A stretch of DNA of 39,815 nucleotides. Source: Candidatus Moraniibacteriota bacterium (GTDB lineage Bacteria > Patescibacteriota > Minisyncoccia > Moranbacterales > UBA2206). A model generated the notes under the pieces. That model did not search any database, had not been told where the DNA came from, and saw nothing but the letters and a program-made list of their open reading frames with translations. Positions 27,649 to 33,426 of the stretch are shown one piece after another (positions within the stretch are counted from its first letter, which is position 1; every line of letters starts with the position of its first letter). The stretch is from assembly GCA_013334765.1 (NCBI GenBank), contig JAAXWW010000001.1, forward strand, positions 1-39,815, in the 5' to 3' direction. Made by a program: the position numbers and the translations under genes.

Positions 27649-28935
27649 GTGGATATATATACGGACAACAATTTTCACAACAAAAAACCGGAAAATCCCT
27701 TTTCTAGGATATCGGGATCCCTACTGCGTTTTCTGGGCGTGTTCTTCTTCTATTTCAAGGGGACTTTTTTCAGCACCAAAAGAAGGCGGGCTGTTTTTGT
27801 CCTCATTATCTCTATTCTATTGGCTTGGCAGCTCGGACCGTACGGAGCACTCAGAAGAAAAAACACGGCACTGATTATCCCGGAACGGGTTTATCATGTT
27901 CCTGAACCATCCGGGCACAATCTGGAAGAGGATGACTATTATACATATATTCCGGGCCCGATATCGATGGATAAGATGAAAAAACAAGGCTGCGTAGCGG
28001 ACGGACTGCTTTCCGGGTATGGAAGCGACACCAAAGAATCAATTGCTATGGTTAACCGTTCCAACTGCATGTATCTTCATAGGGCGCTTGAAACTTGGGC
28101 GGCTCCGCCGGATATGGAAAAGACCAGGGGAATAATGCGCGAAATCGACAGGCCAGGCATAATATACGGCATGTTTATCGCGGAGGCTTTGAAAAAGAAT
28201 GCCAACTATTTCTATCCGGATGAAAATCGCAATTTCGATTTTCGGGATATGTGCTTGCCTAGTTCGGATAATCGCTGGGGTGAGCACACTTGCATTCCCA
28301 GCTTCAAAAGAAAAGAATACCGCAAATACGTGGAATACATAACCAGCCAGGCAATGGATCTTGGAATCCAGAGCTTCCTATTCGGTCAGATCTATTATCA
28401 AGACGATCCGGATGATGCCAATGTCAGCGAGGTATTGAAGCATATGCGAGCATACGCTAAGAAAAAAGGGATCCAAATAGCGATCGGGGCGCAAACCGGG
28501 AGCATCACCAATGAGAAGTATCTGAAGATGTTTGACTATATCGAAGGCGGAGCCGGAATCGGCGATGACGGGACCGTCGAATCAGGTCCATGCTGGAGCC
28601 AGCTTAGCGGGTGCTGGGGGCTTCTTTGGAATGATACGTTCAGGTCCAAGGCCAATAATGTCCTGATTCATCTCGATTGGAGCGGTCTCAAATTCGATGA
28701 CATGAGTTCATTCGCCCGCATGGATAGCAGTGATAGAGCGGCAACGCTCAAGAATCTCTATTCCTATTTCACATCGAAAAACGTCGGGTTCCTGCTGCCG
28801 CTTATGGCAACCGTCAATAAGGACAATGGGGGATGTTTCGGCCACAAGAAGAACTTCTATTCTGCCAGCAATATCCATGGCTGCAAGGATGAAGGAGTCA
28901 TAAACGATTTGCTGAAGCTAAAAGGCAAGAGCTAG
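27649..28935 (+). CDS. Membrane-anchored hypothetical protein, possible TIM-barrel glycosidase-like
   Basis: N-terminal TM, extracellular domain with many Cys and aromatic residues; fold by inference. Confidence 0.55.
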   Translation: MDIYTDNNFHNKKPENPFSRISGSLLRFLGVFFFYFKGTFFSTKRRRAVFVLIISILLAWQLGPYGALRRKNTALIIPERVYHVPEPSGHNLEEDDYYTYIPGPISMDKMKKQGCVADGLLSGYGSDTKESIAMVNRSNCMYLHRALETWAAPPDMEKTRGIMREIDRPGIIYGMFIAEALKKNANYFYPDENRNFDFRDMCLPSSDNRWGEHTCIPSFKRKEYRKYVEYITSQAMDLGIQSFLFGQIYYQDDPDDANVSEVLKHMRAYAKKKGIQIAIGAQTGSITNEKYLKMFDYIEGGAGIGDDGTVESGPCWSQLSGCWGLLWNDTFRSKANNVLIHLDWSGLKFDDMSSFARMDSSDRAATLKNLYSYFTSKNVGFLLPLMATVNKDNGGCFGHKKNFYSASNIHGCKDEGVINDLLKLKGKS

Positions 28936-29022
28936 GCGGTATCCTTGTTTACATGTCATGCCGCATGACCTATAATTCAGGCATGGGGTGTTTTTTGTTT
29001 TCGCAACATAATTCCAAATCGA

Positions 29023-29694
29023 ATGCGCATATTGGTAGTTGAAGATAATAAGGAAATCGCCAGCTTTTTAAAGACTAGTTTGGAGGCGGAGTGCTTCGCT
29101 GTCGATGTCGCTGAAGACGGCGAGCAGGGAACATATCTGGGGCGCATAAACGCTTATGACGCCATAATCCTGGACAATATCCTTCCCAAGAAGCTGGGGA
29201 AGGACGTTTGCATTGCCATAAAGGAAAAAAACAAAGACGTCCCGATCCTGATGCTTTCCGTTAAGGCCGATGTGCCGACCAAGGTGGAAATGCTTAATAT
29301 CGGAGCGGATGACTACATGGCTAAGCCGTTTTCATTCAGTGAGCTGCTGGCTAGGATAAAGGCTATTCTGCGGCGTCCGAAAGGAGCGGTTTCCGAGATA
29401 ATGAGCATTGGTGACATCGCTCTCGATACCACGAAGCATCAGGTGAAAATCAAGGATGAGGAGATCCATCTTACGAGAAAGGAGTTCATGCTTCTCGAGC
29501 TCCTCATGAAGCGGAACGGAGAGGTCGTTTCAAGAGGAGAGATTTCCGAGCATGTGTGGGACATGAACCTTGATCCTTTTTCCAACACCATCGAGGCTCA
29601 CGTGAGAAATTTGAGAAAAAAGCTGAGCCTGGATTGCGACAACAAGGATTTTCTTTTGACGGTTCCCGGCAGAGGATATAGGATAAAGTGCTGA
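29023..29694 (+). CDS. OmpR/PhoB-family response regulator
   Basis: MRILVVEDNKEIASFL, AIILDNILP, KPFSFSELLARI; winged-helix EAHVRNLRKKL...TVPGRGYRI. Confidence 0.95.
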   Translation: MRILVVEDNKEIASFLKTSLEAECFAVDVAEDGEQGTYLGRINAYDAIILDNILPKKLGKDVCIAIKEKNKDVPILMLSVKADVPTKVEMLNIGADDYMAKPFSFSELLARIKAILRRPKGAVSEIMSIGDIALDTTKHQVKIKDEEIHLTRKEFMLLELLMKRNGEVVSRGEISEHVWDMNLDPFSNTIEAHVRNLRKKLSLDCDNKDFLLTVPGRGYRIKC

Positions 29695-29705
29695 TAAGAC
29701 CGGAT

Positions 29706-29749
29706 TTTATTTTTTCTTTATCAAAACTTTATTATTTTTTTATTACAAT
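29706..29749 (+). promoter_or_regulatory. Four tandem TTTAT repeats at 11-bp spacing, with TACAAT -10-like element
   Basis: TTTAT starts at 29706, 29717, 29728, 29739; TACAAT at 29744-29749. Confidence 0.6.
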
Positions 29750-29804
29750 TAGTTCAGAACCGGGGTCGACGAGTTCCTTTAATAAAAAAACAGAATAAAG
29801 AAAC

Positions 29805-29912
29805 ATGAAAAAGGTTATCAAGAAAGTCCTCATGAGCAAGAAGGCAAGAAACGCTTCTGCTGTCGCTTCGTTGGCAGTCGCTGTGTCAGTCGTGAACGCT
29901 CCATGGGGCTAG
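29805..29912 (+). CDS. 35-aa cationic/hydrophobic peptide MKKVIKKVLMSKKARNASAVASLAVAVSVVNAPWG
   Basis: Open frame between regulator box and terminator; leader-like Lys-rich N-terminus, C-terminal NAPWG. Confidence 0.6.
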   Translation: MKKVIKKVLMSKKARNASAVASLAVAVSVVNAPWG

Positions 29913-29958
29913 TTTCCGCCTAGGATTGGGATGTTCATTGTGCGTTTGAGTTATTTAT

Positions 29959-29994
29959 GCCATCCTGGTATTGTATGCCAGGATGGCGTTTGTT
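29959..29994 (+). terminator. Terminator-like hairpin between peptide and kinase
   Basis: GCCATCCTGG-N9-CCAGGATGGC then GTTTGTT. Confidence 0.65.
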
Positions 29995-30011
29995 ATATAA
30001 GTATCTTGTCT

Positions 30012-31442
30012 ATGCTATCAAAAATAAAAAACTTGTTGGCGCTTATTTTCGAGCCGAAAAACAAGAGCAATGAGGATTTGGCGCGAAGGGAGTTCATTTT
30101 GAACGTGCTTCTTTCTGGGACGATCATTCTTTCTGTCGTGTGTGCCGTTGTTTCCGTTCTTCTCCTGCACATATATTATCAGGAAGCCCATGCGACTCCT
30201 TTTCCTATGCTGATAGGGACCATCATTTTCTTCGCTGCTCTTTATTATTTATCCAAGACTGGCAAGGCTAACATATCCGCGTATTTTTTTATCGGGCTTT
30301 ATTTGCTGTTTTCCGTATATACTTCTTACCGATGGGGCGCTTATGCTCCTCAGGCTCTCTTGATTTTCGCTCTGACCGTGGTTATGTCAGGGATATTGAT
30401 CAGCACGAGGTTTGCTTTTTTCCTGGTCATTTTTTCTTCGATTTGCATCTTCTCACTGTTTGATCTGCAGTCCAATGGAAGCATCAAGGCAGATCTGTAT
30501 TGGATGAACCCGGGAGGAATCAGCCGGGGGGATATAATAGTGTATGTGGCAACCCTTTTCGTTATTGCTGTCGTTTCATGGCTTTCGAATCGCGAGATTG
30601 AAAAATCCCTTCATCGTGCCAGAAAATCCGAGGCTGAACTCAAAAAAGAGCGTGACATGCTGGAAATCCGCGTTGAAGAAAGGACTGAGGAACTTAAGCG
30701 CGAGCAATATGAGAAGATGAGGCAGATGCATAAGTTCGCTGAATTCGGACGCATTTCTTCCGGGCTGTTCCATGACATCACTAATTATCTGACGGCGCTG
30801 TCTCTCAATCTTGAAATGGCCAAGGAGAATGGGAAAAAAGAAGTCGACAAGACGCGCAGCTATTTGGAACAGGCGCTCAAGACTTCTTCGAAGATGGAAA
30901 ATTTTGTTGAGGCCATACAGAAGCAGTTGAAAAATCAGGACAAGCTGGAGCGTTTTTCCCTGATTCAAGAAATCGAACAATCTATCCAAGTTCTCGGATA
31001 CAGGTCGAAATCTCAGAATGTTGAAATAGCTTTCCCTCACAAGGGGGAGTATTTCCTTGTCGGAAACAATTTCAAGTTCAGCCAGATAATAACCAATGTC
31101 ATTTCCAATGCTATCGATTCTTATTCTGGCATAGGAGAAGGCGTGAATAAGCAGGTGCTTATAAATATAGGAAAAGAGAATGAGGCGATCATGATAAGCG
31201 TTCAGGATCGAGGTTGCGGGATTTCGAAGGAGAATATGGAAAATATATTCACTCCTTTCTTCACTACGAAAAACGGAAATGACGGCACTGGAATCGGGCT
31301 TTCGACCATGCTGGAAATTCTCAAGAATGATTTTTCCGGCGAGATCGACGTCAGGAGCGAGGAGGGCAAAGGCACGACAATGAAACTGTATTTCCCGATA
31401 GCGAAAGGACTTGTGCAATCGCACAAGTCCTGGAATAAATAA
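30012..31442 (+). CDS. Multi-TM sensor histidine kinase
   Basis: About 6 TM helices; GLFHDITNYL H-box, NVISNAIDSY N-box, DRGCGIS, GTGIGLS. Confidence 0.9.
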   Translation: MLSKIKNLLALIFEPKNKSNEDLARREFILNVLLSGTIILSVVCAVVSVLLLHIYYQEAHATPFPMLIGTIIFFAALYYLSKTGKANISAYFFIGLYLLFSVYTSYRWGAYAPQALLIFALTVVMSGILISTRFAFFLVIFSSICIFSLFDLQSNGSIKADLYWMNPGGISRGDIIVYVATLFVIAVVSWLSNREIEKSLHRARKSEAELKKERDMLEIRVEERTEELKREQYEKMRQMHKFAEFGRISSGLFHDITNYLTALSLNLEMAKENGKKEVDKTRSYLEQALKTSSKMENFVEAIQKQLKNQDKLERFSLIQEIEQSIQVLGYRSKSQNVEIAFPHKGEYFLVGNNFKFSQIITNVISNAIDSYSGIGEGVNKQVLINIGKENEAIMISVQDRGCGISKENMENIFTPFFTTKNGNDGTGIGLSTMLEILKNDFSGEIDVRSEEGKGTTMKLYFPIAKGLVQSHKSWNK

Positions 31443-31455
31443 AAAAAATATTCGA

Positions 31456-33426
31456 ATGAAAAGAAAAACAGACTCTGCCATAAGGCGCGGCTTGATTTTT
31501 CTGTCCAGGGAACAGCGCGCGAATGGCAGTTTCTTCAGCTTGACCTCTGAAAAGAAGAATAATCTGGAAAATGGGACACACCACCGGTCGACATTCCCCG
31601 CCAGCTTGATCCTGTCTTGCCTTAGCGGATTGGCTGATTTCAAAGAAGTTGGAATCGTCCGCAAGAAGGCGGCAGGATTTCTGCTTGGACAGAAAAGCGA
31701 TTTCTGGTCTTTTAATTATTGGGAACGCGGTTCTTCGGATGAAAAGGAGGCTCCTTATCCGGATGATCTGGATGACACTTTTTCGGCGCTTTTTGCCATC
31801 CATGGGTATGATCAGAAGATCATAAAAGGCCGCGATATGGGCAAGATAGTCACTTTGCTGACGGCGACCGAGAAAAAGGAAGGCGGTCCTTATGCTACTT
31901 GGCTTGTCCCGAGGAATGCTGATAAGAAGTGGAGAGATATCGATTTGGCCGTTAATAGCAATGTCGCTTCTTTTCTGGCTAGTCAGGATGTGCATCTGGA
32001 TAGCATGGATTCGCTGGTCGAATCAGCTGTCAGGAAAAACGAATTCATTTCGCCATATTATTATTCTCAGCATTCGGTTATTTATTTCATTTCCAGATTC
32101 TATAAAGGGAAATACGTTAAAAAAATAGTAGACGATATTATTTCAAAAAAGCGCAGAGATGGCGGATGGGGGAATGTCCTTGAGACCGCTTTTTGCGTTT
32201 CCGCTCTTTTTAATTTCGGATGCGATTTGGAAATCGTCGAAGCAAGCATCGCATATCTTTTGAAAAATGAAAGCAAATGGAAGAAGGCCTATCCTTTCAT
32301 CATTGAATTAGTGAAAGGCGGAAATAATCACTATTCCGGCGCTCCAGCTCTGACAGCGGCCTTTGTCCTGGAGGCGCTTGGAAAAGCGAGAAGCAGCAGG
32401 ATCAGGAATGATTCTTTCAAGTCAGCTAATAGAAACAGCGAAACGAAAAGGGAAATGATCCATGAGAGGATCATAAGGAAGACGACTGATATTTTTCCGC
32501 AAAGCAAGGGATGTGCCTATAGCGCCCTTTCCAAACAAGCAAAAAAAATGAGCGAATCCTATTATGCTAAGAATATAACCCTTCTTCCTTATGAATTTCA
32601 TAAATCGCTAGACATTGCGATATCTTCTCGCATTGGGTCTTATGCAATTGAAGAATTCGGAGTTGCCAATCTTTTAGGCTGGATCGCTTATTCTGCTTAT
32701 GATGATTTTTATGATGGAGAAGGAAAAGCGTCTGAATTGCCTGCAGCTAATCTTTGCTTGCTTGAGCTGACGGCTATTTTCATGAAACATGCTGCTGGTA
32801 ACAAGGATTTTCTCTCCCTTTTCCATGAGATAATGATTTCGATAGAGGACGCTAATTTGTGGGAAATGGAAAACTGCAGAGCCTCTTTGTCTGGAAACGG
32901 TTTTCATTTGCCAAAAAGGCTTCCGGCCTATTCTGATTATTCGAGGTTGGCTGATCGCTCCATGGGTCATGCGCTTGGTCCGATTGCGATCGCTTCCATG
33001 CTCGGTTTCAAGAAAAGATCATCGGCAATGAACGGAATCGTAGGGATGTTCCGTTGCTATATAATAGCCAAGCAGCTTAATGACGACGCGCATGACTGGG
33101 AAGAGGATATCAGAAACGGGAGCTTGACGCCGGTAGTCTGCATGATTTTGAAGATTTGGCGCAAAAAAAATAAAAACAGAACGGAAATAAATCTCAGCAA
33201 AGACATCAGGACTTTCCAGGAGATTTTTTGGTATCAGGTTATCGGAATTGTTTGTAAGGACATTCTTTCCTATGCGGCTAAGGCCCGGGAACAATTGGGT
33301 CGCCTGGATATGGTGGAAAATAAGGATTTTTTTGATCGTATGATTGAAAAAGAGGAAAATTCGGCAAAAAAGGCAATCGAGGAGCGGAGCAACACTTTGG
33401 ATTTCATCAGATCTTTCGATAGCTGA
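31456..33426 (+). CDS. Terpenoid-cyclase (toroid) plus isoprenoid-synthase-like two-domain protein
   Basis: N-terminal DLDD (31765-31776) in an alpha-toroid-like region; C-terminal DDFYD (32701-32715) and QLNDDAHDWEED (33073-33108). Confidence 0.7.
   Translation: MKRKTDSAIRRGLIFLSREQRANGSFFSLTSEKKNNLENGTHHRSTFPASLILSCLSGLADFKEVGIVRKKAAGFLLGQKSDFWSFNYWERGSSDEKEAPYPDDLDDTFSALFAIHGYDQKIIKGRDMGKIVTLLTATEKKEGGPYATWLVPRNADKKWRDIDLAVNSNVASFLASQDVHLDSMDSLVESAVRKNEFISPYYYSQHSVIYFISRFYKGKYVKKIVDDIISKKRRDGGWGNVLETAFCVSALFNFGCDLEIVEASIAYLLKNESKWKKAYPFIIELVKGGNNHYSGAPALTAAFVLEALGKARSSRIRNDSFKSANRNSETKREMIHERIIRKTTDIFPQSKGCAYSALSKQAKKMSESYYAKNITLLPYEFHKSLDIAISSRIGSYAIEEFGVANLLGWIAYSAYDDFYDGEGKASELPAANLCLLELTAIFMKHAAGNKDFLSLFHEIMISIEDANLWEMENCRASLSGNGFHLPKRLPAYSDYSRLADRSMGHALGPIAIASMLGFKKRSSAMNGIVGMFRCYIIAKQLNDDAHDWEEDIRNGSLTPVVCMILKIWRKKNKNRTEINLSKDIRTFQEIFWYQVIGIVCKDILSYAAKAREQLGRLDMVENKDFFDRMIEKEENSAKKAIEERSNTLDFIRSFDS

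Follow-up and report, generated by a model that had tools for sequence, protein, structure and literature searches.

The peptide gene of a conserved two-component cassette is preceded by four 11-bp direct-repeat units (29705–29748), which are very likely (probability roughly 0.82) the operator through which the adjoining OmpR/PhoB-family response regulator (RR) acts on the peptide promoter. Binding of the RR and activation of the promoter are inferred; sequence shows the array itself, its constant position relative to the −10 element, its conservation, the single candidate OmpR-type RR found and the conserved cassette. The window (the whole stretch analysed, 39,815 nucleotides) is the start of a contig in a genome of 969 kb (10 contigs, completeness score 100%), whose size and relatives point, by inference, to Patescibacteria. 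The gene order is RR, peptide, histidine kinase and enzyme, and the genes, promoters, array, leader element and hairpins located below are all on the + strand.

The word TTTAT begins at 29706, 29717, 29728 and 29739, in exact 11-bp steps, within the 110 nt separating the RR gene from the 35-codon peptide gene. The units are TTTTATTTTTT (29705–29715), CTTTATCAAAA (29716–29726), CTTTATTATTT (29727–29737) and TTTTATTACAA (29738–29748), with 7-bp cores TTTTATT, CTTTATC, CTTTATT and TTTTATT. The predicted operator, which has the consensus yTTTAwy followed by 4 bp, meets the criterion for an OmpR/PhoB-type site (at least two units of 7 conserved and 4 less conserved bp at an 11-bp period). It is the sole place in the window where a non-homopolymer 5-mer occurs four times with one fixed period of 6–22. 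Among 20,000 dinucleotide-preserving shuffles of 29695–29760, none contained TTTAT four times at 11 bp and 11 contained any non-homopolymer 5-mer four times at any period of 6–22 (about 5e-4 locally). The array thus exceeds chance even when word and period may be freely chosen. By a generic self-alignment score the window alone is marginal (lag 11, p = 0.078; best lag, family-wise p = 0.093), because conservation is confined to some 5 bp within a T-rich sequence, and the case for the array therefore rests on comparison with other loci.

The −10 element of the peptide promoter, TACAAT (29744–29749), lies 16 bp downstream of the third TTTAT start and is overlapped by unit 4 (29738–29748). There is no recognisable −35, the best candidate at 16–18 bp spacing matching in 3/6 positions; the array occupies the expected −35 place and so meets the further criterion of a site directly upstream of the −10 in place of the −35. 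A terminator is rejected as the explanation of the T-rich stretch, as no GC-rich hairpin precedes it. The preliminary description, made before any comparison, is borne out on these points: the four TTTAT positions and their period hold exactly, as do the overlap of the last unit with a TACAAT −10-like element and the absence of a good −35. The 7 + 4 bp layout it likened to PhoB/OmpR-family direct repeats also holds, on sequence and comparison, with binding itself inferred.

Phasing was compared across 22 loci. Each footprint region ended at the peptide start and either began at the RR stop or covered 150 nt; for L092, where no peptide ORF is recognised between RR and kinase, the kinase start served as the endpoint. 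In a model-free test the best ungapped self-alignment at each lag from 6 to 25 was set against 1000 shuffles. With the window excluded, the remaining 21 loci give their highest Fisher χ2 values (42 df) at lag 11 (86.8) and lag 22 (67.1), and no other lag exceeds 53.2. A matrix test used a 7-bp unit matrix from other loci, scoring three tandem units plus a −10 with the test locus held out; the units of the other loci had been picked by eye, so independence is given only in the held-out sense. The held-out window scores 14.3 at period 11 versus at most 3.0 at periods 9, 10, 12 and 13. At period 11 the window, L036, L037, L079 and L092 all reach the shuffle-floor p (1/401), L056 gives p = 0.0175 and L077 is not significant.

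The register to the −10 is also kept. Indexed on TTTAY, boxes stand at −38, −27 and −16 relative to the −10 in the window, L056, L079 and L092, where the last full unit starts 16–17 bp upstream of the −10, and 1 bp closer in L036 and L037; the distance from array to −10 is thus constant within 1 bp across five diverged genomes. For the window and five orthologous promoters alike, the best −35 candidate matches at only 1–3 of 6 positions. The array and promoter of L079 read TTTTGATTTTA TTTTACCTTTT CTTTGACAAAA TTTTACCTTAA TTTTGCTATTAT (boxes include TTTTACC and CTTTGAC), those of L092 GTTATCCCGCG TTTAACTTTTT GTTAACTTTTT GTTATCCGCCC TTTGTTATTAT (boxes GTTATCC, TTTAACT, GTTAACT and GTTATCC).

These comparisons bear on the simplest alternative, that the array is a chance periodicity of T-tracts, or an UP-element or DNA-bending tract contacted by RNA polymerase alone. 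In its favour, the region is 74% A+T, 11 bp is near the helical repeat of DNA and the generic test on the window by itself gives only a marginal result. Against it, orthologous promoters show a distinct lag-11 signal without any contribution from the window, the register to the −10 is fixed, the signal is lost at periods 9, 10, 12 and 13, and the boxes of L092 and L079 are repeats rather than plain T-tracts. We consider this explanation very unlikely. The preliminary description had allowed for chance and had proposed two checks, the expectation in matched AT-rich sequence and phylogenetic footprinting; both are positive, the array being rare in shuffles and its 11-bp phasing and placement relative to the −10 being conserved in orthologous loci.

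About half of the loci lack a recognisable TTTA-type array, which is therefore a lineage feature of the circuit, not a universal one. In L080, L083 and L087 the RR–peptide gap is only 25–37 nt, which leaves no room for an array. L086 carries a different 11-bp pair, TTGTAAGGTTA TTGTAAGGTTC, possibly reflecting a diverged regulator. In L092 a strong four-unit array accompanies cassette-like RR and kinase genes, with no recognised peptide ORF between the two genes. The genomes are probably mostly metagenome-assembled.

The proposed array binder is the RR encoded immediately upstream (29023–29694). It consists of a receiver (PF00072, 2.2e-23) and a Trans_reg_C winged helix (PF00486, 2.1e-25), thus meeting the domain criterion for the OmpR/PhoB family, and its probable phospho-acceptor is D51. 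Querying the genome with the RR identifies four other loci, every one receiver-only, so the one OmpR-type RR found, that of the gene adjoining the array, is the natural cognate factor; the query is blind to stand-alone winged-helix proteins. The RR gene has a separate promoter (TTTACA-17-TATAAT, 28948–28976, 11/12 matches) without boxes. An inverted repeat, GTCATGCCGCATGAC (28954–28968), lies inside the spacer of that promoter and is a possible site for another regulator.

That some other DNA-binding protein owns the array might be argued from the occurrence of boxes away from the RR locus, and from L079, where the RR gene is downstream of the enzyme gene on the opposite strand and the peptide promoter nevertheless keeps its array. 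Against this, OmpR/PhoB regulators characteristically use direct repeats with an 11-bp period, only one regulator of that type was identified in the genome, and array and RR-containing cassette occur together from genome to genome; we judge this alternative very unlikely. The earlier suggestion that the adjoining RR controls the peptide is in this sense supported, with physical binding and the direction of control inferred.

As to direction, the array could be an RR operator and act as a repressor site for the peptide gene, since unit 4 covers the −10 and could block polymerase. This is unlikely. The lack of a usable −35 in the window and in five orthologous promoters fits dependence on an activator, and the units sit at the position that a PhoB-type activator takes in class II activation.

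The preferred reading, an activator operator, finds its closest parallel in the PhoB/PhoP operators (E. coli PhoB, M. tuberculosis PhoP, S. coelicolor PhoP), which are likewise head-to-tail tandem units of 7 + 4 bp with an 11-bp period. PHO boxes are 11-nt units (PMC4415409), and such operators are bound by OmpR/PhoB winged-helix regulators (PMC4415409, PMC4832192); the array shares their placement before the −10 and the lack of a good −35. For M. tuberculosis PhoP, the spacer separating the 7-bp motifs must be exactly 4 bp, and binding is tighter on three or four motifs than on two (PMC4832192). The base sequences are different: the window units, yTTTAwC/T, do not meet the canonical PHO-box core criterion (CTGTCAT-like) and differ from the CTGTCAT, GTTCACC and TCACAGC of PHO-box-type operators. 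Unlike those operators, the window array overlaps the −10, and its predicted target is a signal-like peptide gene whereas theirs are phosphate genes. By analogy, and with no binding data, the geometry of the array fits the PhoP/PHO-box mode while its base sequence is its own.

The peptide gene (29805–29912) encodes 35 residues, MKKVIKKVLMSKKARNASAVASLAVAVSVVNAPWG. At 20 further loci, a kinase gene, an enzyme gene or both are accompanied by a peptide ORF of 35–57 residues, and the leader M..(L/I)...LTdK..R is common to all 21 peptides. All of them also have a Trp 2–7 residues from the end, as PW in 19/21. No Pfam or NCBIfam family matches the window peptide, and no dedicated exporter or protease gene is seen beside its gene. 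The membrane histidine kinase (30012–31442; PF02518, 5.4e-22) has at least four hydrophobic N-terminal segments and a conserved H254; its kinase domain matches only HisKA (weakly) and HATPase_c-type families.

The enzyme (31456–33426, 656 residues) is terpene-synthase-like. Its N-terminal domain is class II cyclase-like (DDLDDT) and matches drimenol synthase (PDB 9mhs, E = 9e-15); the C-terminal domain is class I/prenyl-synthase-like (DDFYD and NDDAHD), with weak family matches to Terpene_syn_C_2 (0.0012, two members) and polyprenyl_synt (E = 0.07, one member). The window enzyme itself has no Pfam family above cut-off. The second motif, QLNDDAHD, is largely invariant and fits either NDxxx or an intact DDxxD. 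In L047, L048, L084 and L085 homology to the enzyme is limited to the C-terminal part, so the N-terminal domain seems exchangeable. L036 has a NUDIX gene after the enzyme gene, whose assignment as IPP-isomerase-like is inferred from sequence alone.

Searches with the enzyme find relatives in 7/131 genomes of the order, 6/384 of the class and 18/380 of the phylum (query genome included in each count); a plasmid search gives a single weak match. A kinase search of the family adds two more cassette copies, and order and class searches centred on G611, G582 and G076 add one new locus only, L092. The RR adjoins the cassette in most loci and is inverted downstream in L048 and L079. The cassette of peptide, sensor, regulator and enzyme recurs in about 20 distantly related small-genome bacteria.

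Two further elements flank the peptide gene. In the 5′ leader, GGTCG (29764–29768) lies in a short hairpin (GAAC/GTTC, 29757–29776). The motif is present in 12/22 leaders versus a shuffle mean of 1.5 (max 6), namely in the window, L036, L037, L045, L046, L048, L056, L077–L079, L081 and L084; as GGTCG(A) it lies 36–56 nt upstream of the peptide start codon, often in a short hairpin loop. An Rfam search of 28900–30100 returns no credible match, and the leader motif is likewise without one. Between peptide and kinase genes is a terminator-like hairpin (29957–29989), which, as inferred from sequence alone, would favour peptide transcripts over kinase transcripts. Most orthologous loci have comparable hairpins, judged by eye, in the corresponding position.

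Control by the same regulator may extend to a small regulon, with a RadC paralogue and proteins resembling cell-wall hydrolases among its members; the evidence is suggestive and does not demonstrate it. A pattern search for three boxes with at most one mismatch gives 17 genome matches (14 distinct sites) versus 7 for the reversed-pattern control, a modest excess. Outside the window, five sites combine a −10 at +15 to +17 with an ATG ORF, 47–78 nt downstream, of at least 157 codons; a −10 is at the right place in only 5/13 other sites, against a background of about 15%. The five predicted targets are G000:C7:1734 (RadC), C2:17039, C6:127693, C9:11283 and C10:7884. The five ORFs encode RadC (PF04002, 9.8e-40), a PF07486 cell wall hydrolase, its N-terminal relative and two unknowns. 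Sites L097, L098, L102, L103, L106, L109 and L111 have the box pattern and no −10 at the right distance, and the −10 of L100 matches in just 3/6 positions; none of these is claimed. The box-array-bearing loci L101 (G000:C2:17039) and L104 (G000:C6:127693) encode proteins with a common N-terminal region, GIYLIEI.ASA..WWQNF, one of them with the PF07486 domain.

An N-extended RadC subfamily (L126, L127, L120, L122 and L123) is present in 5/16 cassette genomes tested versus 0/10 genomes without a detected cassette. In G076 it adjoins the enzyme gene, and in G196 the RadC promoter has four 11-bp units followed by TAGCAT. RadC as a universal target is rejected, a clear box array being present upstream only in G000 and G196.

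In the mechanism we propose, the kinase encoded downstream would phosphorylate the adjoining OmpR-type RR, which would bind head to tail on three or four 7 + 4 bp units at the position of the missing −35. The array-bound RR would then recruit RNA polymerase to TACAAT and turn the peptide gene on, activation rather than repression being inferred. With less confidence we infer that the peptide is exported, that its near-C-terminal Trp is modified by the terpene-synthase-like enzyme and that the kinase senses the modified peptide, whereby the array would close a positive feedback loop. The same RR would also switch on the small regulon.

The regulators of agr and ComCDE activate the promoters of their own peptide signals via direct repeats, a likeness to the proposed circuit; AgrA and ComE belong to the LytTR type, have differently arranged repeats and differ in this from the OmpR-type RR. 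By analogy, with Trp modification and kinase activation inferred, the closest functional analogue of the cassette is Bacillus ComQXPA, where ComX has an invariant prenylated Trp near its C-terminus and ComQ retains a DDxxD and an NDxxx motif (PMC5331326). Both systems link a short precursor, an isoprenoid-enzyme-like DDxxD protein, a membrane kinase and an RR, and the peptide criterion, an invariant near-C-terminal Trp, is met by 21/21 cassette peptides. ComQ is defined as FPP/GGPP-synthase-like with a FARM DDxxD and a pseudo-SARM NDxxx; the window enzyme has DDFYD and the doubly readable QLNDDAHD, so the comparison speaks neither for nor against a ComQ-type enzyme. Other criteria are not met: ComA is LuxR/NarL-type whereas the window RR is OmpR-type (PF00486), and ComP is a HisKA_3 NarL-partner kinase whereas the window kinase is of HisKA/HATPase_c type. 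As the regulator and kinase classes differ, the cassette is not a ComQXPA member. It differs further in its enzyme, a class II plus class I terpene-synthase-like fusion with DDAHD, in its order (RR-peptide-kinase-enzyme) and in the peptide gene having its own RR-box promoter.

It remains possible that the operator is correctly assigned and that the peptide is a modified antimicrobial or membrane-active product, controlled by a two-component system that merely senses stress. In favour of this, the peptide of the window has a net charge of +7 and a hydrophobic stretch, and box sites in the genome include cell-wall-hydrolase-like proteins. Against this, the 21 peptides vary in net charge from −5 to +9 whereas all retain the Trp, and a closed signal circuit is the better fit to four linked genes for kinase, RR, peptide and enzyme. 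The cassette as a whole looks like a cell-to-cell signalling circuit, an inference made with less confidence than that of the operator.

A bolder reading, which we offer tentatively and think slightly more apt to fail than to hold, is an undescribed family of peptide quorum sensing in reduced-genome bacteria. A terpenoid-modified Trp peptide would be made via the fused class II and class I terpene-synthase-like enzyme and auto-induced through the 11-bp OmpR-type operator, with RadC-like and cell-wall-hydrolase genes in the regulon (a competence- or lysis-like programme). We found no description of this cassette in the open-access literature searched, and a survey of quorum-sensing proteins in CPR/DPANN makes no mention of ComX or ComQ (PMC7567580).

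With the array, a two-component system from a very small genome gains a concrete predicted operator, and genes that were merely listed as neighbours can be read as one wired circuit. If the circuit does serve peptide signalling, bacteria regarded as host-dependent and sparsely regulated would possess dedicated cell–cell communication, possibly with terpenylation of a Trp peptide outside Bacillus.
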